This document shows, piece by piece, positions 34,452-62,515 of a DNA stretch of 64,000 bases (position 1 is the first letter of the stretch; the number at the start of each line of letters is the position of its first letter). Position numbers and translations under genes: made by a program. Where the stretch lies: positions 61,435 through 125,434 of the forward strand of contig NZ_JVOJ01000045.1 of the NCBI RefSeq assembly GCF_001064145.1. The letters are read 5' to 3'. The notes below the pieces were generated by a model, which made no database searches, was not told where the DNA came from, and saw nothing but the letters and a program-made list of their open reading frames with translations. Origin of the DNA: Sanguibacter keddieii. Its GTDB lineage: Bacteria > Actinomycetota > Actinomycetes > Actinomycetales > Actinomycetaceae.

Positions 34452-35786
34452 GTGACCACGACGCCGATTCCGAATAACGAAACCGCTCCCGAAGCTGCCC
34501 CGTCGACTGTTGAGGAGGCTGCGGCCTCGACGACGATCGCTGCTTCTGAGGTGCCCACCCACCCCTTCGCCCGTATCGGCGAGGATGGCACTGTGTATGT
34601 CAAGGATGGAGACGAGGAGCGCGTCATTGGCGGCTTCCCCGAGGGCATTCCTGCTTCTCCCTACGCTCTGTACGAGCGTCGCTACGCGGACCTCGAGGCC
34701 ACCATCAAGCTGTTTGAGGATCGCCTGGGCACGCTGAGCCCGCGCGACATCGATCAGACTCTCGCAACGCTGCGTGAGCAGGTCGCCTCTCCGAACGTTA
34801 TCGGCGATATCCCGGCGCTGCGTGAGCGCGTCGCGGCGGCCACGAAGGCTGCCGAGGAGCGCAAGGAAACTGCCCGCGAGGAGCGTAAGGCTGCCAAGGC
34901 TGCCGCTCTCGCCGAGCGCACCTCCGTCGTCGAGCGCGCCGAGGCTATTGTTGCCCAGGATCCCGCTAAGACCCACTGGAAGCAGTCGGGGCAGACTCTG
35001 CGCGACCTCCTCGACGAGTGGAAGAACCTGCAGCGCCGCGGTCCGCGCCTGGAGAAGGCGGTTGAGGATGAGCTGTGGAAGCGTTTCTCCTCCGCGCGCA
35101 CCCAGTTTGACCGTCACCGCCGCCAGTTCTTCTCGCAGCTCGATCAGGCTCAGTCTGAGGCGAAGCGTGTGAAGGAAGCTCTGATCGCCGAGGCCGAGGC
35201 TCTCTCCTCGTCTGTGGACTGGTCGCGTACCTCCGGCGCCTACCGTGAGCTCATGAACCGATGGAAGGCTGCCCCGCGTGCCTCGCGTAAGGAAGACGAC
35301 GCGCTGTGGGCGCGTTTCCGCGCCGCTCAGCAGGTGTTCTTCGACGCTCGCCGCGCGAAGGACGAGGCCACCGACGCGGAGTACCGCGACAACCTCGTCG
35401 CGAAGGAAGCGATTCTCGTTGACGCCGAGGCGATCCTGCCGGTGACCGACATTGATCGTGCGAAGGCTCAGCTGCGTCAGATTCAGGACCGCTGGGAAGA
35501 TGTGGGCCGCGTGCCTTCCGCTGATCTGCACCGTATCGAGGGTCGCCTGCGCGCCGTTGAGGCCGCTGTCCGCGAGGCGGAAGAGAAGGAATGGCGTCGC
35601 ACCAACCCGGAGACGCGCGCACGCGCGGCCGGCATGGTTGGTCAGCTTGAGGAGCAGATCGCTCAGCTCGAGCGTTCTCTGTCCGAGGCCGAGGCCAAGG
35701 GCGACGAGAAGGCTGCCAGGAGCGTGCGCGAGGCTCTCGAGACCAAGCGCGCCTGGCTCGCGCAGATCTCCTCCTCCATGGAGTGA
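34452..35786 (+). CDS. DUF349 coiled-coil protein
   Basis: The 444-residue cytoplasmic protein begins with an Ala/Thr/Pro-rich disordered head (~1-45) and a short globular piece (HPFARIGEDGTVYVKDG). Long charged helices follow with the repeating DUF349 element: (D)LLDEWKNLQRRGPRLEKAVE, LMNRWKAAPRASRKEDD and IQDRWEDVGRVP. The C-terminal ~50 residues form a coiled coil. Family members are conserved in actinobacteria without an assigned function. The GTG at 34452 follows GAAGGAATATC. The upstream palindrome suggests specific regulation, and its position between rel and hisS is typical. Confidence 0.85.
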   Translation: MTTTPIPNNETAPEAAPSTVEEAAASTTIAASEVPTHPFARIGEDGTVYVKDGDEERVIGGFPEGIPASPYALYERRYADLEATIKLFEDRLGTLSPRDIDQTLATLREQVASPNVIGDIPALRERVAAATKAAEERKETAREERKAAKAAALAERTSVVERAEAIVAQDPAKTHWKQSGQTLRDLLDEWKNLQRRGPRLEKAVEDELWKRFSSARTQFDRHRRQFFSQLDQAQSEAKRVKEALIAEAEALSSSVDWSRTSGAYRELMNRWKAAPRASRKEDDALWARFRAAQQVFFDARRAKDEATDAEYRDNLVAKEAILVDAEAILPVTDIDRAKAQLRQIQDRWEDVGRVPSADLHRIEGRLRAVEAAVREAEEKEWRRTNPETRARAAGMVGQLEEQIAQLERSLSEAEAKGDEKAARSVREALETKRAWLAQISSSME

Positions 35787-35787
35787 C

Positions 35788-36507
35788 ATGCGTCTTCACG
35801 TCATTCCGTCGCCTTTCTACGCGGCGAATGGGCTTGTGCTCGTCCCTTCCGGGGCGGGCACTGCCCTTGTCGTCGACCCTTCAGCGGGAATCCAACACCT
35901 GATCCGCGAGGTCCTCGAGCTCGAGGGCGTCAACGTGGGCGCGGTGCTTCTCACGCACGGACATCCGGACCACGTCTGGGATGCGGCCGCAGTGTCCACC
36001 TGGGGACCGGACGGCGCGACCGTTCCCGTGTATGTGCCGGGACCTGACATGTACCGCATGGACGACCCGGCCTCGTTCCTGCCGATGCCGCTGCCCGACT
36101 TCGTGGGGGAGTGGGTCAAGCCCGACGACCTGCGTGAGATGCCCTCCGATTCGTTCGAGGCAACTCCGGGCGTGTGGCTGCGCATGGTTCCCGCACCCGG
36201 CCATACAGAGGGATCGGCTGTCTTCCTGGGGGAGAGTCCGCTCGACATTCGGGTGAACAACCAGTCCTTTTACTCGTCCGACGAAGCGGTTCCGTGGGCG
36301 ATGAGCGCAGACGTGCTGTTTAAGGACAGCGTCGGGCGCACCGACCTTCCCGGGGGCGACGAAACTCAAATGCGGCATTCTCTGCGCACGATTTCCAACG
36401 CTCTCGATCCTCGCACCGTCCTCGTACCCGGCCACGGCCCGGCGACGACGCTCGCGGATGAGATACGCTCAAACCAGTATCTGATTCGCGCTCGTCGCAT
36501 CGGCTAA
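35788..36507 (+). CDS. Metallo-beta-lactamase-fold hydrolase (glyoxalase II-like)
   Basis: The 239-residue protein has the metal site THGHPDHVWD (HxHxDH, ~56-65), a further His in PAPGHTEGSA (~134) and the C-terminal PGHGPAT (~217). Length and motifs match the MBL proteins next to hisS in actinobacteria (Rv2581c position), often called hydroxyacylglutathione hydrolase-like. Actinobacteria use mycothiol, so the real thioester substrate is uncertain. The ATG lies one base after the DUF349 stop. Confidence 0.88.
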   Translation: MRLHVIPSPFYAANGLVLVPSGAGTALVVDPSAGIQHLIREVLELEGVNVGAVLLTHGHPDHVWDAAAVSTWGPDGATVPVYVPGPDMYRMDDPASFLPMPLPDFVGEWVKPDDLREMPSDSFEATPGVWLRMVPAPGHTEGSAVFLGESPLDIRVNNQSFYSSDEAVPWAMSADVLFKDSVGRTDLPGGDETQMRHSLRTISNALDPRTVLVPGHGPATTLADEIRSNQYLIRARRIG

Positions 36508-36534
36508 CCACCTTCCTCACAGAAAGAACGCTCA

Positions 36535-37887
36535 ATGGCTCGCACGTCCCTGTCAGGTTTCCCCGAATGGCTCCCGGAGGGCCGCATCATTGAGATGCAT
36601 GTCCTCGACGAGCTGCGGCGCGTGTTCGAATTGCATGGGTTTGCGGGCATTGAAACCCGGGCGGTCGAGACCCTCGAGCAGTTGGAAGCAAAGGGCGAGA
36701 CCTCCAAAGAGATCTACGTGCTCGACCGCCTGCAGGCCCTGAAGGCCGCGGCGGCGGGCGCACGCGCTCCCAAGGACAAGGGCATGGGTCTGCACTTCGA
36801 TCTGACCGTTCCATTCGCCCGCTACGTGGTGGAGAACGCGAACGAACTGGACTTCCCGTTCAAGCGCTATCAGATTCAGAAGGTGTGGCGCGGCGAGCGC
36901 CCACAGGATGGTCGCTTCCGCGAGTTCACGCAGGCGGATATCGATGTCGTAGGTAACGGCGAGCTGCCGTTTCACTTCGAGGTAGACCTGCCCCTCGTCA
37001 TGGCCGAGGCGCTCAACAACCTGCCGATCCCGCCCGTGCGCGTGCTCGTGAACAACCGCAAGGTTGTCCAGGGAGTGTGCGAGTCCCTCGGGGTCACGGA
37101 CGTTGAGGCTGCCCTGCGTGGCCTCGACAAGATCGACAAGATCGGTCCGGAGGGTGTGGCCGCCGAGCTGGCTCAGTCCGGTATCTCGGGCGACCAGGCA
37201 TCCGTTCTGCTTCAGATGGCGCAGATCCGCACGTCCGAATCTTCCGAGGTGCGCACGCGTCTGGCCGAGCTCGGCGTGAGCGGTGAACTGCTGGATGAGG
37301 GCTTGAAAGAGCTGACCGAGCTCCTCGATACCGCGAACAAGCGGATGCCGGGTGCAGTCGTCGCTGACCTCAAGATCGCTCGCGGCCTCGACTACTACAC
37401 GGGCAGCGTGTACGAGTCGGAGATCGAAGGCCATGAGGACCTCGGCTCGATCTGCTCGGGCGGACGCTACGACTCCCTGGCGAAGGACGGCAAGCGCACG
37501 TACCCGGGCGTCGGCCTGTCGATTGGCGTTTCGCGCCTCGTGTCGCGCATGATCTCCGCGCCGATGGTGACGGCATCTCGCAAGGTGCCCACGGCGGTCG
37601 TGGTCGCGGTCATCGCGGAGGAACAGCGTGAGCGCTCGGAGTCCATTGCCGCCGTGCTGCGTTCGCGCGGCATCTCGACGGACGTTGCTCCCAGCGCCGC
37701 GAAGTTCGGCAAGCAGATCAAGTTCGCCGATAAGCGCGGAATCCCCTTCGTCTGGTTCCCGGGCGAGGAGGGCAGCGCGGATACGGTGAAGGATATCCGA
37801 AGCGGTGAGCAGGTGGACGCCGACCCGCACACGTGGGTCCTGCCCGAGGCCGACGCGGTTCCCACTATCGAGAAGGTGACGGACTGA
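36535..37887 (+). CDS. hisS: Histidine--tRNA ligase
   Basis: The 450-residue class II synthetase charges tRNA-His. Motif 2 is in QIQKVWRGERPQDGRFREF (~113-131), the HisA motif in ARGLDYYTGSVYE (~281-293), and motif 3 in SIGVSRL (~325). The C-terminal anticodon domain begins near 350. The ATG follows CAGAAAGAACGCTCA. The next gene (GTPase) starts directly after its TGA, so at least three genes may be co-transcribed. Confidence 0.96.
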   Translation: MARTSLSGFPEWLPEGRIIEMHVLDELRRVFELHGFAGIETRAVETLEQLEAKGETSKEIYVLDRLQALKAAAAGARAPKDKGMGLHFDLTVPFARYVVENANELDFPFKRYQIQKVWRGERPQDGRFREFTQADIDVVGNGELPFHFEVDLPLVMAEALNNLPIPPVRVLVNNRKVVQGVCESLGVTDVEAALRGLDKIDKIGPEGVAAELAQSGISGDQASVLLQMAQIRTSESSEVRTRLAELGVSGELLDEGLKELTELLDTANKRMPGAVVADLKIARGLDYYTGSVYESEIEGHEDLGSICSGGRYDSLAKDGKRTYPGVGLSIGVSRLVSRMISAPMVTASRKVPTAVVVAVIAEEQRERSESIAAVLRSRGISTDVAPSAAKFGKQIKFADKRGIPFVWFPGEEGSADTVKDIRSGEQVDADPHTWVLPEADAVPTIEKVTD

Positions 37888-39540
37888 GTGTCCCTCACGG
37901 CGGTTGAAGCAGCTCGCTCGCTGGCACAAGCCCTCGAGCAAACGCTCCAGGCCATTCCGGACGGGAGTCGCGGTGACGCGGAGCGCGCGCTGCGACGCCT
38001 GCAGGACGTCGTGTTGCCGCGTCTTAAGGATGCGGATGCGCCCGTGCTGGTTGTCGTCGGCGGCTCGACGGGGTCGGGTAAGTCGACGCTCGTCAATTCG
38101 TTGCTTGGCCGGAACGTGAGCCGGGCGGGCGCGGTGCGTCCGACGACTCGCCGCCCCGTGTTGGTGTGCTCGCCCAAGGCGCGTGAGTGGTTCATGTCGG
38201 ACCGAGTGCTGCCGCGCCTGGCGAAGATCGAGGGCACGGGCGGGGACAGCCTTGACGCGATCACGATCGCGGTCGAGGAGACGTTGTGGCCAGCCGTGGG
38301 CATTGTGGACGCCCCGGACATCGATTCTGTCGAGGACGGAAACCGTCGCCTGGCTGCGGAGCTGCTTGACGGTGCAGATCTGTGGGTGTTCGTCACGACC
38401 GCGGCCCGCTACGCCGATGCGGTGGCGTGGAAGCACCTGGAGGAAGCCGCGAGCCGCGGATTGCGTGTTGCTATCGTGCTCAACCGCGTCCCCGCTGGGG
38501 CGACGCAGGAGATTCGCGAGGATCTGGCCGCGTTGGCCCAGCGGCGAGGCCTGGGCGAGGTGGCGATTTATACGGTCGAGGAGCAGCCGCTGAGCGATTC
38601 CCGCCTGCCCGCCGAGGCAATTGCGCCGATTGGCGCGTACCTGGAGGGAATCGGACGCGATGCCGAGGAACGCGCCGCTATCGTGCGCCGATCGCTGTCT
38701 GGTGCCGTCGCCTCGTCGTTGGAGGAGACGACGCGTGCGCTGGAGGCTGCGAGGCAACGCAACCGTGCGTTTGAGGCGGCCTCCGATGATATTGCGCAGC
38801 TCGTTGCGTCCTATGCCCGGGAGGTGTCCTCCTCGTCCAGCGACGACGTGCTGCGTGGCGAAGTGAGCGCACGCATCGCTGAGGTGCTGGGCTCGTGGGA
38901 TATGTCCAAGACCATCTCGCGTGTGTTTTCTGGCCTGAGCTCGCGCGTCATGGGGGCTTTTCGCGGACAGGCAGCCCCGGACGTTCAGGTGCAGCGCGAC
39001 CTGACTGGAGGCCTTGCGCAGCGTTTGGCGGACCAATACCACCGGGCGTGGGGCGAATCCCTGCGCAGGGCGCGTATCGTCGTCGATACGTCGTCCTTCG
39101 ATGAGCTGCTCGATGTCGATGCGGCGGCGCAGCGCGGCCGCACAGTCGCGCAGGAGTGGACGCGCGAGGTCACGCAGATCATTCGTGGCCAGGCCGAATC
39201 CTCGCGCGTCAGCGGGCGCATGCTCGCGGGCGGCATCAACGTCGTGACGGTGTCACTGATGGTGACCGCGTTTACGATGACCGGTGGTCTCACCGGAGTT
39301 GAAGTCGGCATCGCCGGCGCATCTGCCGCCCTGTCGCAGACGATCTTGGAAGCCTATTTCGGCGAGCGAACGGTTCGCTCGCTGGCGGAGCAGGCCCGCG
39401 CGGCGCTCGAGCGCCTCGCCGGCGAGTCGCTGTCGGATGTCGTTGCGCCTGTGAGTGCGAGCCTCGACCGTGCGTCCGACAAGGTTCTCGTCGACAAGCT
39501 GGCGGCGGCCGTGGAGAGCGCCCGGGAGGTGCTGGCATGA
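37888..39540 (+). CDS. Dynamin-like GTPase A of a paired set
   Basis: The 550-residue protein has a G domain with P-loop GGSTGSGKST (58-67), switch Thr in VRPTTRRP (~83-90), the unusual G3 DAPDIDSV (~142-149) and a weak G4 at LNRVP. The middle is helical. Residues ~448-490 are a long hydrophobic/Gly-rich hairpin (GGINVVTVSLMVTAFTM...) like the membrane paddle of bacterial dynamin-like proteins, and a C-terminal helix follows. The GTG start is immediately after the hisS stop, and the end overlaps GTPase B by four bases. The pair recalls neighbouring dynamin-like genes in actinobacteria (IniA/IniC, DynA/DynB), but direct orthology is not claimed. Confidence 0.8.
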   Translation: MSLTAVEAARSLAQALEQTLQAIPDGSRGDAERALRRLQDVVLPRLKDADAPVLVVVGGSTGSGKSTLVNSLLGRNVSRAGAVRPTTRRPVLVCSPKAREWFMSDRVLPRLAKIEGTGGDSLDAITIAVEETLWPAVGIVDAPDIDSVEDGNRRLAAELLDGADLWVFVTTAARYADAVAWKHLEEAASRGLRVAIVLNRVPAGATQEIREDLAALAQRRGLGEVAIYTVEEQPLSDSRLPAEAIAPIGAYLEGIGRDAEERAAIVRRSLSGAVASSLEETTRALEAARQRNRAFEAASDDIAQLVASYAREVSSSSSDDVLRGEVSARIAEVLGSWDMSKTISRVFSGLSSRVMGAFRGQAAPDVQVQRDLTGGLAQRLADQYHRAWGESLRRARIVVDTSSFDELLDVDAAAQRGRTVAQEWTREVTQIIRGQAESSRVSGRMLAGGINVVTVSLMVTAFTMTGGLTGVEVGIAGASAALSQTILEAYFGERTVRSLAEQARAALERLAGESLSDVVAPVSASLDRASDKVLVDKLAAAVESAREVLA

Positions 39541-41126
39541 GGCGAGCGACGAACCCCGTGGCGTCGGCCGCCCAGCAGCTCGACCAGATGTGTACCCTGG
39601 CTGCTCGGGATCTTGATGAGCAGACCCTGGCGCGCATTCGCGAGCTCATTGACGTGACGTCCGAACGCAGCGAGGTTGACCCGTCCTGGTGCGTCATCGG
39701 CATGCTGGGAGGTACGGGTGCCGGCAAGTCTTCCCTGGTGAATGCGCTGAGTGGGGGAGAGGTCGTCACCGCGGGTGTTCGACGCCCCACGACGAACGAG
39801 GCGTGCGCCGTGTTGCCGCGAGGCCGCGAACCGCAGGAACTGCTGGGGTGGCTGGGCATCGGTCGTCGGGTGGAGGCTCCGCGAGCGCTCCCCGGCGACA
39901 CAGTCGTCGTCGATCTGCCGGACATTGATTCGGTCGAGGCAAGCCACGCGGAGATCACCGGTCGTCTCGCATCGCGCGTTGACGCGCTCGTTGTTGTCGT
40001 CAATCCTCAGAAGTACGCTGATGCGCGTCTCCATGACGACTGGTTGGAACGCTTGCGCTTGTCCCACGCGTCGGTGACGGTCGTCCTCACGCACATCGAT
40101 ACCATCTCCATGCCCGAGCGTGATGCGATCGAGCAGGACCTGCGTCGTCTGCTGAGTGAGCGCGGTGTGGCGCAGGCTGAGGTCTTCGCGGTGTCGTCGA
40201 CGACGGGTGAGGGCATGCGCACGCTGATCAAGCACTTGACGCGTGAGGCCGAGCGGGTCGCGCGGCAGGCGTCGCGCGCGCGCGCTGCGTTGCGTGAGGC
40301 CTCCCGGCTGCTGCACGAGTCCTTGGAGCTGTCCGGCACGGTCCGAGGTCTCGAGACCGATGGCCTGGCCGACGAATTGGCTGGCACGGCCGCTGATCTT
40401 GCGGGTGCCCCCATCATCGCCGAGGCCGTGGCTGACTCGACGCTGCGTGCCGGACGCCGGGCGGGTGGCTGGCTGCCGTTGCGTTGGCTGGCGCGTACGG
40501 GTGCGGACCCGCTGCGCCGCCTGCATCTGGACGATGAGTCGCGCGCCGAGGGGGCGACGACTCCGACGTTGCCGACTCGGTCCGCCTCTGATGAAGCTGC
40601 TTTCGTGAACGCCGTTCGTGGGGCCGTTGGGGAGCGCGCGCAGGCGCGTCCTGCCCGGTGGCGCGCGGCGCTGGTCGAGCGTGCGCTCAGCGGGGCGCGA
40701 GAGGCTCCAGATGCGGCGCATCGCGAGGTTGCGGAGCATATCCGCGTGTCGACCGGAGCGCCGGCGTTGTGCCGCGTGCTGGGAGGAGCACAGCTGCTTG
40801 CGTGGCTCGGCGTTGTCGTGGGCGTGGCGTGGATTGTTCTCGTGCACCTGGGCCGGGCCGTCCTCATCGACGTTCGGGTCCCCGCGCTCGGGCCGATTCC
40901 ACTTCCGACGGCTCTGGCCGCGTTGTGCCTGTTGATCACGGTGCTATGCGCGTGTGCGAGCCGAGCACTCGCCCGGTGGGCTGCATCGCGGCGTCGACGC
41001 GTCGTGATGCGCGACCTGCGTGGACTGTGCCGTGATGTGGTCGATCGACTTGTCGTTGCTCCCCTTCGGTCCGAGGACAATCGACAGGTGACGATTGCCT
41101 CGTTCCTTTCCCGCCTGCCTCTCTGA
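39537..41126 (+). CDS. Dynamin-like/YfjP-type GTPase B of the pair
   Basis: The 529-residue protein has P-loop LGGTGAGKSS (~57-66), RRPTTNEA as switch I, G3 DLPDIDSV (~126-133) and a good G4 THID (~185). The middle region is helical and Arg/Ala-rich. Two strong membrane helices occur near the C-terminus (~421-443 and ~461-479), followed by a basic cytoplasmic tail. The shared PDIDS switch II and RPTT motifs show that it is a distant homologue of the preceding gene. The 4-base overlap argues that the two form a complex. The function is unknown; membrane remodelling or stress protection is a guess based on dynamin-like families. Confidence 0.8.
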   Translation: MRRATNPVASAAQQLDQMCTLAARDLDEQTLARIRELIDVTSERSEVDPSWCVIGMLGGTGAGKSSLVNALSGGEVVTAGVRRPTTNEACAVLPRGREPQELLGWLGIGRRVEAPRALPGDTVVVDLPDIDSVEASHAEITGRLASRVDALVVVVNPQKYADARLHDDWLERLRLSHASVTVVLTHIDTISMPERDAIEQDLRRLLSERGVAQAEVFAVSSTTGEGMRTLIKHLTREAERVARQASRARAALREASRLLHESLELSGTVRGLETDGLADELAGTAADLAGAPIIAEAVADSTLRAGRRAGGWLPLRWLARTGADPLRRLHLDDESRAEGATTPTLPTRSASDEAAFVNAVRGAVGERAQARPARWRAALVERALSGAREAPDAAHREVAEHIRVSTGAPALCRVLGGAQLLAWLGVVVGVAWIVLVHLGRAVLIDVRVPALGPIPLPTALAALCLLITVLCACASRALARWAASRRRRVVMRDLRGLCRDVVDRLVVAPLRSEDNRQVTIASFLSRLPL

Positions 41127-41357
41127 GCGCCGTCCGATCGGTAGAGGGTTGACGATTCGCTGACAGTGAGTTCGCCGACCACGCGCCTCTACGAGCTGCG
41201 CGCGAGGGTATGCTGGCCATAGCGATGAGGCGCTGCCCCTTGTTATGGTGCCCGCGGGATGCGGGATTTGTTGTTATGGGTGAGGCCGCGCCGAGGAGCC
41301 GAGTAGGCCCGCCCCGATGGTTTTGCTGACACCGATTGCACCACGCAAGGATGAATT
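41127..41357 (+). promoter_or_regulatory. 231-base gap: promoter and long leader of the DEAD-box helicase gene
   Basis: A candidate -10 TATGCT is at 41209-41214, which would leave a leader of about 140 bases. Within it, TTGTTATGG occurs twice (41240-41248 and 41271-41279), flanking a GCGGGAT tandem duplication (41254-41267). AAGGA (41348) is the ribosome site. No ORF of note is present. Long structured leaders are common for cold-induced helicase mRNAs; that is inference here. Confidence 0.4.
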
Positions 41358-43526
41358 ATGCCCTCTGACGATTTCATGGAACGCGCTGACGACGAGCGCG
41401 AGATGACGGCGATTGCCGACGATATTGACGACCTCGACGATGATCGTGACCTCGACGATGATCGCGCGGACGAGGAGGATGCGGATACCGTGACCTTCGC
41501 GAGCCTCGGCCTGCCCGAGGAGATCCTCGCCGCCGTTACCGACATGGGATTCCGCGTCCCCACCCCGATTCAGGCCGCTGCTATCCCGCCGCTGCTGGAG
41601 CTGCGCGACGTCGTCGGCATCGCCCAGACGGGTACCGGTAAGACTGCTGCATTCGGTCTGCCGCTCCTGGCAATTGTTGACGCGGACGAGCGCGATGTCC
41701 AGGCCCTCGTGCTGGCCCCCACCCGCGAACTCGCGATGCAGAGTGCCCAGGCCATCGAGGATTTTGCTGCTCGTACCGCCCGCCTCGACGTTGTCCCCGT
41801 GTACGGCGGCTCGCCCTACGGCCCGCAGATCGGTGCGCTCAAGCGCGGCGCTCAGGTTGTTGTCGGTACCCCGGGTCGCGTCATCGACCTCATCGAGAAG
41901 GGCGCCCTGGACCTGTCGAACGTGCGCATGCTGGTCCTCGACGAGGCCGACGAAATGCTGCGGATGGGCTTTGCCGAGGATGTCGAGACGATCGCCTCGA
42001 GCGCCCCGGATGATCGCCTGACGGCACTGTTCAGCGCGACGATGCCCGCGGCCATTGAGAAGGTCGCCCGCGAGCACCTGAAGGATCCGGTCAAGGTCGC
42101 GGTTTCCACCGAGTCCTCGACTGTCGACACCATCCACCAGACCTATGCGGTGGTGCCCTACAAGCACAAGATCGGCGCGCTCTCGCGCGTGCTTGCCACC
42201 CGCGCCCAGCACATCAAGGAAGGCCAGGAAGGTGCTGACGCCGCCATCGTCTTCGTGCGCACTCGCGCCGATGTCGAAGAGGTGTCTCTGGAGCTCTCGG
42301 GCCGCGGATTCCGCGCTGCCGGCATCTCCGGCGATGTCGCTCAGACCGAGCGCGAGCGCATGGTTGAGCGCCTGAAGAACGGCTCGCTCGACGTGCTGGT
42401 CGCGACTGACGTGGCCGCGCGAGGCCTCGATGTCGAGCGTATCTCCCTCGTCGTCAACTTCGACGTTCCGCGCGAGCCCGAGGCCTACGTGCACCGCATC
42501 GGTCGCACCGGCCGAGCAGGCCGCGAGGGTCGTGCGCTGACCTTCTTCACCCCGCGCGAGCACGGACGTCTGCGCCGTATCGAGAAGTTGACGGGCACGG
42601 AGATGGAAGAGGTCGAGATTCCCTCGCCCGCAGCCGTCTCCGAATTCCGCGCTAGCCGCTTGCTCGAGGGCCTGTCCGCTCGCATCGAGCGCGGCCGTCT
42701 CGACATGTATAAGCGCCTGCTCGCGGACCTCGGCGGTGAGATGTCCGTCGAGGACATCGCCGCGGCCCTCATGGCGACGGCCGTCGGCGACGAGGGCCCC
42801 GCGCCGCGCCGCGAAAAGGACCGTCGCGGCAACGGCAAGATCCGCCGTGAGGAACAGCTGGACGAGTCCGGCGAGTTCGTCGGCGCCACCTTCGAGGCTG
42901 GCCGCGACAAAGACCGCCCGCTCAAGGGCGGCGCGAACGGTGCCCGTCGTCGCGGCGGCGGTCGCCCGGCCCCCGGTTCCGGTACACGCTACCGCATCGA
43001 GGTGGGCAAGAAGGACCGCGTCAAGCCCGGTTCGATCGTGGGCGCTATTGCGGGCGAGGGTGGCATCGACGGCCGCGATATCGGCAATATCGAAATCTAC
43101 CCGACCTTCTCCCTGGTCGACATCACCGCTGACCTGTCCGGCGAGCAGCTATCCCGTATCTCCAAGGGATACGTGTCGGGCCGCCAGCTGCGCATCCGCG
43201 TGGACGAGGGCCCCGGCGGCCGTTCTCACGGCGACCGCGATGGTTTTGAGCGCCGTGAGCGCCGCGACTTCGACCGAGACAACCGAGGCCGCGGTGGCTA
43301 CGGCGACCGCGAGGGCCGCTTCGGGGACCGTGATGAGAAGCGTCCGCACCGCTTCGAAAAGGGCGACGGATCGCGTCCGCGCCGCAGCGTTCGTACCGAG
43401 CGCTGGGAGAAAGACATCAAGCGTGCCCGCCGCGAACGCGAGGGTGGCCGCGACGGCGGTTGGGATCGCGACTCAGGCCGCGATGGCGGACGCCGCCACT
43501 TCGGCAAGCGCCGTTACGAGGACTGA
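41358..43526 (+). CDS. deaD: DEAD-box ATP-dependent RNA helicase (DeaD/CsdA-like)
   Basis: The 722-residue helicase starts with a very acidic head (~1-35, Asp-rich). The core follows, with Q motif FRVPTPIQ, Walker A AQTGTGKTA (~89-97), VLDEADEML (~193-201), FSATMP (~225) and HRIGRTGRAGR (~379-389). A DbpA-type RNA-binding domain spans ~545-620 (YRIEVGKKDRVKPGSIVGAI). The last ~100 residues are an Arg/Gly/Asp-rich disordered tail. It should unwind structured RNA in ribosome assembly or RNA decay, especially in the cold. Its 3' end overlaps the convergent MFS gene by 13 bases. Confidence 0.95.
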   Translation: MPSDDFMERADDEREMTAIADDIDDLDDDRDLDDDRADEEDADTVTFASLGLPEEILAAVTDMGFRVPTPIQAAAIPPLLELRDVVGIAQTGTGKTAAFGLPLLAIVDADERDVQALVLAPTRELAMQSAQAIEDFAARTARLDVVPVYGGSPYGPQIGALKRGAQVVVGTPGRVIDLIEKGALDLSNVRMLVLDEADEMLRMGFAEDVETIASSAPDDRLTALFSATMPAAIEKVAREHLKDPVKVAVSTESSTVDTIHQTYAVVPYKHKIGALSRVLATRAQHIKEGQEGADAAIVFVRTRADVEEVSLELSGRGFRAAGISGDVAQTERERMVERLKNGSLDVLVATDVAARGLDVERISLVVNFDVPREPEAYVHRIGRTGRAGREGRALTFFTPREHGRLRRIEKLTGTEMEEVEIPSPAAVSEFRASRLLEGLSARIERGRLDMYKRLLADLGGEMSVEDIAAALMATAVGDEGPAPRREKDRRGNGKIRREEQLDESGEFVGATFEAGRDKDRPLKGGANGARRRGGGRPAPGSGTRYRIEVGKKDRVKPGSIVGAIAGEGGIDGRDIGNIEIYPTFSLVDITADLSGEQLSRISKGYVSGRQLRIRVDEGPGGRSHGDRDGFERRERRDFDRDNRGRGGYGDREGRFGDRDEKRPHRFEKGDGSRPRRSVRTERWEKDIKRARREREGGRDGGWDRDSGRDGGRRHFGKRRYED

Positions 43527-61082: not shown

Positions 61083-62515
61083 GTACGCCTCCCCCGTACC
61101 CCTTCCGTTCTCGTCGCGAGATTCATTCCGGCGAGCGAAAGGTCTATTCCGATGCCGATCTACATGAGCAGTATGCATCGCAGGACGCGACCGAGACGCC
61201 CGCTGCGGGAACCGACTTGCGTGACGGTTTCTCGCGTGACGAGGCCGTGGCACCCGTTTCGGCAAGGGCGCGGGGCGAGCGCACGCTTCGTTCTTTCGAC
61301 GAAGTGACGGATACTGGCGATACTCCTCGCGTGTCCGGTGCAGCGCTGCGTCAGCGTAGTGCGGCGCAGGCAGCAGAATCGCCTTCTGAGACGACGGGTA
61401 TGCGTTCTCGCCGCCTCGCCAGTGAACGACGAGCGGCGCGCAAGCGCAAGCGCCGCCGTCGGGTGCGGTCCTTCTTCATTATTGTTCTGGTGCTTGGCCT
61501 GCTGGCCGGTGCCAGCTACGTCGCCTACGATCAGATCTTCAACTCGTCTGCGACCTCCTCGGATGATTTCCCGGGGCCGGGCTCCGGCTCGGTCGAGGTG
61601 ACGATCGTTGAGAATTCATCCGGTCGCGATATCGGCCAGATGCTCGTCGATGCGGGCGTGGTGAAGTCCGTCGGAGCGTTCGTGCGTCAGTTCGAGAAGA
61701 CCTCGGCGTCGATGTCCATTCGTCCCGGTACGTACCGCCTGAAGCAACAGATGAGTGCCGCCGGCGCGCTTGCAGGCCTGCTGGACGAGACGAACCGCGT
61801 CGATTCGACGATTACGATCACGTCGGGCCAGAAGATGTCGGAGGTCAAGAAGCGGATCGTCGACATTATGGGCGTCACTGAGGAACAGGTAGACGCTGCT
61901 TTCGCCGACACGGAGGCGATTGGGCTACCGTCTGAGGCTGGAGGTAACGCCGAGGGATGGCTGCTGCCCGGTTCCTATGAGGTCGCCGAGGACGACACTC
62001 CGACGACCGTCATCGCACGGATGGTGAAGGGCACTGTCGATGAGCTTGATCGTCTTGGCGTTGCTCCTGCTGACCGTGAGACCGTCCTCATCAAGGCTTC
62101 CATCGTCGACGGTGAAATGAACATCGACAAGTACATGCCGATGGTTGCTCGTGTCATCGAGAATCGCCTCGCAGACACGAACGGGGAGACGAAGGGCTAC
62201 CTCGGCATGGACTCGACCGTCCTGTACGGCGTCGGAAAGACCAGCGGCGTTCCGGACCAGGCGGACCTGGACAACGACAATCCCTACAACACGCGCCTGC
62301 ACGCAGGTCTGCCTCCGACGCCGATTGGGCAGCCCAGCGAGAAGGCCATCAAGGCAGTCCTGAACCCAGCTGATGGTAACTGGCTGTACTTCGTCACCGT
62401 CAACCTGGACACGGGTGAGACACTGTTTGCCTCGACTCTCGAGGAGCAGGAGAAGAACCGCGAACAGTTCAAGGCGTACTGCACCGCGAACCCGACGGTC
62501 TGCACCGCGTCATGA
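61079..62515 (+). CDS. mltG: Endolytic peptidoglycan transglycosylase MltG
   Basis: The 478-residue protein has a long cytoplasmic, low-complexity N-terminus (~1-125, with KRKRRRR before the membrane), one membrane helix (~130-150), a LysM-like domain (VEVTIVENSSGRDIGQML) and the YceG catalytic domain. The conserved core reads KASIVDGE (Glu346); other members usually have ASIVEKE or ASIVQAE, so the catalytic Glu is kept while the preceding residues differ. It should cut nascent glycan strands outside the membrane and set their length. It overlaps ruvX and aroE by four bases each. Confidence 0.92.
   Translation: MSTPPPYPFRSRREIHSGERKVYSDADLHEQYASQDATETPAAGTDLRDGFSRDEAVAPVSARARGERTLRSFDEVTDTGDTPRVSGAALRQRSAAQAAESPSETTGMRSRRLASERRAARKRKRRRRVRSFFIIVLVLGLLAGASYVAYDQIFNSSATSSDDFPGPGSGSVEVTIVENSSGRDIGQMLVDAGVVKSVGAFVRQFEKTSASMSIRPGTYRLKQQMSAAGALAGLLDETNRVDSTITITSGQKMSEVKKRIVDIMGVTEEQVDAAFADTEAIGLPSEAGGNAEGWLLPGSYEVAEDDTPTTVIARMVKGTVDELDRLGVAPADRETVLIKASIVDGEMNIDKYMPMVARVIENRLADTNGETKGYLGMDSTVLYGVGKTSGVPDQADLDNDNPYNTRLHAGLPPTPIGQPSEKAIKAVLNPADGNWLYFVTVNLDTGETLFASTLEEQEKNREQFKAYCTANPTVCTAS

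Follow-up and report, generated by a model that had tools for sequence, protein, structure and literature searches.

What are two adjoining GTPase genes doing directly behind a histidyl-tRNA synthetase gene, and do they encode an undescribed machine, as the original prediction, made from the letters alone, had proposed? The question arises from a 64,000-nucleotide stretch of contig NZ_JVOJ01000045.1 (assembly GCF_001064145.1, filed as Sanguibacter keddieii, positions 61,435 to 125,434 of the forward strand), here called the window, in which the two genes, termed A and B, occupy positions 37888 to 41126. Taken together, the analyses below favor the reading that A and B form a pair of bacterial dynamin-like proteins of the DynA/DynB family, for which a role at the division site may be inferred; we give this reading a probability of roughly two in three. 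Both genes are complete open reading frames (ORFs), and the features on which the argument draws are the following:

37888..39540, + strand: gene A, putative DynA-type GTPase of 550 amino acids with a GTG start (ORF list, searches, motif survey)
38062..38085, + strand: P-loop (G1) of A, GSTGSGKS (sequence motif)
38137..38148, + strand: switch I of A, RPTT (sequence motif; 117 of 118 in the family)
38308..38328, + strand: G3 of A, DAPDIDS, with Asp replacing the G3 Gly (sequence motif; Asp in 116 of 118)
38482..38493, + strand: degenerate G4 of A, NRVP, lacking Asp (sequence motif and family survey)
39220..39360, + strand: hydrophobic hairpin-like region of A, amino acids 445-491, with a TGGLTG turn (hydropathy)
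39537..41126, + strand: gene B, putative DynB-type GTPase of 529 amino acids with an ATG start and two C-terminal membrane segments (ORF list, searches)
39708..39731, + strand: P-loop (G1) of B, GGTGAGKS (sequence motif)
39783..39794, + strand: switch I of B, RPTT (sequence motif; RPTT in 108 of 118)
39912..39932, + strand: G3 of B, DLPDIDS, with Asp replacing the G3 Gly (sequence motif; Asp in 118 of 118)
40089..40100, + strand: G4 of B, THID, with Asp present and His instead of Lys (sequence motif)
40794..40850, + strand: predicted membrane segment 1 of B, amino acids 420-438 (hydropathy)
40902..40958, + strand: predicted membrane segment 2 of B, amino acids 456-474 (hydropathy)

Gene A begins at 37888, the next base after the hisS stop (hisS ends at 37887), and the four bases that A shares with B read ATGA; with hisS abutting A and this overlap at the A/B junction, A and B look translationally coupled. 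A sequence search with window A retrieves window B at 33-34% identity, and a comparison of the A profile with the B profile gave a probability of 99.9% over A columns 8-272 and B columns 7-247; on these alignments the two proteins are homologous in their G domains. The original prediction had correctly read two overlapping genes for distant homologs, RPTT and a D-x-PDIDS switch in both of them, a good G4 in B only, and two C-terminal membrane helices in one partner. Of the paddle-like hydrophobic hairpin that it had seen in A, the first half holds, being the one clear hydrophobic segment of the protein (amino acids 445-463, hydropathy 1.68) and passing the membrane threshold, whereas the second, less hydrophobic stretch beyond the TGGLTG turn does not pass it. 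Comparison with four close relatives yielded ratios of nonsynonymous to synonymous substitution rates (dN/dS) of 0.08-0.11 for A, 0.08-0.14 for B, and 0.02-0.07 for hisS, so that A and B are under purifying selection. Owing to this selection and to the conservation of the pair across the phylum, A and B are not a chance pair of ORFs.

The nearest characterized counterpart is found in Streptomyces, in which DynA and DynB carry the neighboring locus tags vnz_12110 and vnz_12105 and are referred to as the dynAB operon (PMC6428758), and in which DynB is described as tied to the membrane through two segments and as interacting with DynA and with divisome proteins (PMC8748795). When aligned with the Streptomyces-like genome G023, window A showed 45% identity over ~300 amino acids (E 1.4e-57) and window B 37% (E 2e-32). 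The Streptomyces-like genomes are those of genus code g6, which we take to be Streptomyces: all seven tested carry three to seven SsgA-family genes, against one of nine genomes outside g6 (G062, with a single match), and both of the two tested carry three SepF genes, S. venezuelae being reported to have SepF, SepF2, and SepF3 (PMC8748795). In all nine loci of the Streptomyces-like pair, an ssb gene lies downstream, and the gene of one of them (L187) was confirmed as SSB. We take sven_2472 to be dynA, and ssbB presumably stands beside the dynA and dynB genes in Streptomyces. One published list, in which sven2472 stands next to sco2685, annotates it as a putative ATP-binding protein (PMC3765725). 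The same two-gene order, a second partner with two membrane segments, and the same motifs place the window pair with that of the Streptomyces-like genomes, which we take to be DynA/DynB; by these features it most likely belongs to the same family.

These motifs were surveyed in 118 A and 118 B proteins, with L136 left out as identical to L068 and with proteins shorter than 350 amino acids omitted from the membrane-segment counts. The fourth G3 place is held by Asp in 116 of 118 A proteins, mostly as D-x-P-D-x-D-S, and in every one of the 118 B proteins, mostly as DLPD-x-DS. In the dynamin superfamily the usual G3 form is DxPG, and nearly all of the A and B family proteins depart from it, with Asp in place of this Gly. 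Control GTPase frames had Gly at this place in 10 of 10 cases, of which seven came from Dynamin_N loci and the other three were Era or Era-like (one of the three confirmed as Era); in an eleventh control, an ATP-binding cassette (ABC) transporter-like P-loop frame, the DxPG pattern gave no match. Judged from this survey, the PDIDS of the window is one form of a family hallmark, DxPDxDS, present in nearly all members of both partners, and a brief title-level literature search revealed no evident earlier account of the Asp in G3. The two partners also differ consistently in G4, which lacks Asp in the A family (NRVP, DRVP, SRVP, and similar, with Asp last in one of 107 printed motifs) and ends in Asp in all 113 motifs printed for the B family. 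Two membrane segments within the last 40% of the protein were detected in 105 of 117 B proteins; of 116 A proteins, 87 had a single segment, 26 had none, and 3 had two.

Do these proteins belong with dynamins at all? The Pfam family Dynamin_N matched window A with 47.6 bits and window B with 32.3 bits (cut-off 27), and at E 0.001 it matched all 28 A and all 28 B proteins examined. In profile comparisons with two small dynamin-like sets (six proteins in all), the alignment was confined to the G domain, and the B profile matched an Era set almost as well as the dynamin-like sets. Additionally, B matches ribosome-assembly and SelB GTPases more often than dynamins, which would suit translation- or ribosome-linked GTPases of the Era/EngA kind, functionally tied to hisS and relA. 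Such matches, however, cover the G domain, which is common to P-loop GTPases, and the two membrane segments in B would be unexpected for ribosome factors. A plasmid search for a named homolog returned one record, from Nonomuraea gerenzanensis, with 39% identity over 89%. In six of the seven g6 genomes, the other Dynamin_N places comprise one frame of 325-448 amino acids, Era-like in both that were fetched, and one of these genomes additionally has a Dynamin_N frame of 627 amino acids. In the seventh g6 genome, G128 (L192), three additional large Dynamin_N genes adjoin one another, with an ABC-transporter-like ORF beside them.

Low-confidence structural models of A and B, searched with Foldseek, both had the Campylobacter dynamin pair as their top match (E 1.2e-4 for A, 8.9e-8 for B), in alignments that were long but with template modeling (TM) scores of just 0.18-0.29, and thus a hint only. 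Such similarity would also agree with an alternative that we consider unlikely but credible, in which A and B are envelope-stress or membrane-repair dynamins that act like IniA or B. subtilis DynA by tethering or cutting damaged membrane, other bacterial dynamin pairs having been connected, in part speculatively, with membrane tethering, fission, or repair (PMC6104087, PMC6715688). After the C. jejuni pair, the best matches of the models were BDLP, LeoA, and EHD for B and IniA for A, and these too would suit it. Against it, the neighbors of the pair (RelA/SpoT, a DUF349 protein, a metallo-beta-lactamase-fold protein, hisS, and a DEAD-box RNA helicase) include no obvious envelope-stress gene, and the nearest characterized pair known to us is a division factor. 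On the combined models and profiles, A and B are likely dynamin-like, in line with the resemblance to bacterial dynamins, as a membrane-tied pair of distant homologs, that had been noticed from the letters.

The pair extends far beyond the window. Single-sequence searches of 198 genomes of the phylum detected A in 38 of them and B in 39, a search of the class with the A profile found matches in 112 of 246 genomes, and within the window's own family A matched in 89 of 101. We fetched 123 loci (L066-L188), which were chosen rather than drawn at random and include near-identical ones, so the counts are not independent. Both genes were present in 116 of them, on the same strand and with A upstream in every case; in 10 of the 116 (six Streptomyces-like and four of family code f73), a gap of 444-1605 bases separates A from the conserved part of B, and in those the open frame of B extends back to A. 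The other seven comprise L104-L108, each showing a single partner, on a short contig or at the end of one, L089, in which A falls below the threshold, and L159, in which the A frame runs off the contig. The A-then-B pair is therefore widespread in Actinomycetota. A shortened form was also seen: in L188 and in some genomes of genus code g248, which belongs to another family, the A frame spans ~313-388 amino acids, comprising the G domain without the C-terminal part, and in L188 this short A adjoins a full-length B. A title-level literature search found no published account of the pair in Actinomyces or Schaalia.

How, then, does the window copy relate to the others? Many members of its family have a second A-B pair near ssb and ettA, and both pairs were fetched from 12 genomes. 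The second pair shares the family and the two-gene order with the window pair and differs from it in being more divergent and in that 14 of its 15 loci have ssb, an ettA-type ABC gene, or both downstream; "ettA" here denotes a homology cluster that includes other ABC proteins, its representative from L163 being EttA. Genes of the ssb/ettA type also lie downstream of the Streptomyces-like pair and of several single pairs of other families. In family code f73 (L149-L162, L168), several genomes likewise have two A-B pairs, the one adjoining ssb and ettA, often with cysG upstream, being the more divergent. When five Schaalia genomes were searched with the second-pair A, all five yielded the hisS-linked A and B alone and no second pair; in three Schaalia genomes, the window's among them, the ettA region held neither A nor B and, as judged by eye, lacked ssb as well.

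Phylogenies were built for A with 81 rows (L087 and L088 kept) and, as a quick tree, with 95 rows, the latter leaving out 25 of 120 rows as near-duplicates, fragments, the long rows L087 and L088, or by further thinning; the B tree excluded L087, L088, and L089, and a joined A+B tree was made from 53 hand-picked loci plus the window (54 rows). In the joined tree, the hisS-linked pair clusters among single pairs from other families (nodes 96-99) and is separated from the second pair. A topology with both Actinomycetaceae pairs as one clade was rejected by the approximately unbiased test (p-AU 0.016) on the 54-row joined tree, for a group that was named after seeing the trees and with a long-branch warning. 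A recent duplication within Actinomycetaceae is disfavored by this value, with the same reservation that the group was chosen post hoc. The Schaalia branch is unusually long, at 1.38 changes per column in the A tree and 1.3 in the B tree, despite purifying selection within Schaalia. A doubtful conjecture, which we mention as such, is that the hisS-linked copy would be a second, separately inherited dynamin pair with a job of its own, the sole pair in Schaalia, and that the Asp-for-Gly of the family in the G3 of both partners might read the nucleotide state unlike known dynamins.

Several of the results weigh against the DynA/DynB reading of the window pair and have to be set beside it. Era of the window's own genome (L197) scores 44.3 bits on Dynamin_N and so passes the cut-off of 27 too, which makes that cut-off weak evidence for dynamin identity. 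The AlphaFold2 models, made from shallow alignments of the window proteins and four close relatives, were of low confidence, with mean predicted local distance difference test (pLDDT) scores of 41.8 and 52.0, and showed mainly helices beyond the G domain, where a dynamin-like stalk would lie. In the A trees and the joined tree, the window copy falls among pairs of other families and is separated from the Streptomyces-like set, and the branch uniting that set with the second pair is weak (63 in the joined tree, 86 in the 95-row A tree). L070, L071, L072, and L082 fall with the second pair in the B tree (93) and on the window's side in the A trees, and since the A and B trees partly disagree in this way, our confidence was lowered slightly. 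The ssb gene that follows the Streptomyces-like pair does not follow the window pair, and the ssb/ettA place in Actinomycetaceae is that of the other pair; strict orthology with DynA/DynB is no more than possible, and that the window copy is not a clear orthologue of the Streptomyces-like pair also speaks for the envelope-stress alternative. The SsgA family, central to the Streptomyces work, had no match in the window's genome, and the identification of g6 as Streptomyces is our own reading, drawn in part from SsgA-family and SepF counts. No A match was found in 12 of the 101 family genomes; all 12 belong to five genera (g158, g166, g175, g177, g181) in which no tested member is positive, a pattern that suggests lineage-wide losses, and the A-B pair is dispensable in some lineages. 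The division role, finally, is one that we infer by transfer from Streptomyces DynA/DynB.

If the window pair does act as a DynA/DynB-family pair, a mechanism can be outlined. B would serve as the membrane anchor, and A, with its degenerate G4, would depend on B and join it through a mixed contact and its own hydrophobic region, giving an A-B complex on the cytoplasmic membrane at the division site. There, nucleotide-driven assembly would help to hold the FtsZ-membrane collar until septation is complete. SepF is present in the window's genome, and since that genome has no SsgA-family match, the link to FtsZ in Schaalia might run through SepF. Co-occurrence of sepX and dynB has been reported in unicellular actinobacteria (PMC8748795).

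What remains of the question is the part played by hisS. The neighborhood adds two further features:

36535..37887, + strand: hisS, histidyl-tRNA synthetase, the upstream neighbor of A (NCBIfam and Pfam)
41251..41265, + strand: weak terminator-like hairpin after B (three such sites in the scanned region against 3.0 expected by chance)

A scan of 35600-41500 found no promoter-like site (0.4 expected by chance, such scans being weak at high G+C content). From relA to the DEAD-box helicase, the seven window proteins show 93-98% identity to their counterparts in the S. odontolytica record L067, and by these identities the window is from a Schaalia odontolytica-like genome. Record L066, which bears the name Xylanimonas cellulosilytica strain 352_XCEL, matches the window at 94-99% identity across the same seven proteins and lies inside Schaalia in the A and B trees; it is probably mislabeled. 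The window-type loci of the family number 29: four are L066-L069, and the remaining 25 were taken singly from as many of the 89 family genomes in which A matched. In 26 of the 29 loci, hisS is directly upstream (all except L131, L132, and L141). Within the stretches fetched, hisS was found in none of the 15 second-pair loci of the family and in none of the 79 loci outside it, where some contigs are short and a few links could be missed. The coupling to hisS that had been proposed from the window alone therefore stands within the family, as a position directly behind that gene, and not outside it: hisS linkage was seen only in the window's family. A functional hisS coupling as a trait of the whole protein family finds no support outside Actinomycetaceae.

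For translation-linked GTPases speak, besides the matches of B, the hisS gene directly upstream with its coupled start, the presence of relA nearby in most hisS-linked family loci, and the proximity of ettA, a translation factor gene, to the pair in many of the loci that are not hisS-linked. With hisS missing from both the second-copy loci and those outside the family, and with the membrane segments of B, we regard this explanation as highly improbable. Under the DynA/DynB reading, hisS would most likely supply steady expression, through co-transcription and a coupled start, rather than function.

The answer to the opening question is thus that the pair is not an undescribed machine, a proposal ruled out by its wide occurrence and its likeness to the characterized Streptomyces DynA/DynB. 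Placement in a characterized family had been named at the outset as the result that would speak against novelty, and the pair does fall with the Streptomyces-like pair. The novelty is modest and comes down to three points: that the pair is linked to hisS within a single family, that a second copy occupies the ssb/ettA place, and that Asp stands in G3 throughout the protein family. If the reading is right, the division-linked dynamin family of sporulating Streptomyces becomes open to study without sporulation, in a small oral bacterium. The occurrence of two distinguishable copies of the pair in some families matters when phenotypes are transferred by name, and the Asp at the G3 Gly position throughout the family offers a concrete, testable oddity for GTPase mechanism.

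Among other known dynamin systems, the mycobacterial IniA/IniC are likewise actinobacterial dynamins encoded by two genes, and a single membrane segment is predicted in IniA (PMC6715688). The Foldseek match of IniA to window A was weak (E 0.0064), and IniA was absent from the matches to PDB sequences listed for the A profile and from the best 60 of 111 for the B profile. Campylobacter jejuni DLP1/DLP2 (5owv/5oxf) resemble the window pair as a heteromeric bacterial dynamin pair and as the top Foldseek match of both models, and they differ from it in that the sequence match is weak only (A profile E 0.021). From the Streptomyces-like loci, the window pair differs in lying behind hisS and ahead of a DEAD-box gene rather than before ssb, in a shorter N-terminus of B (the starts being uncertain), and in its position in the trees. 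With Streptomyces DynA/DynB it shares adjoining A and B genes, and with the Streptomyces-like loci the degenerate G4 in A, the Asp in the G4 of B, the DxPDxDS motif, and the two predicted C-terminal membrane segments in B.

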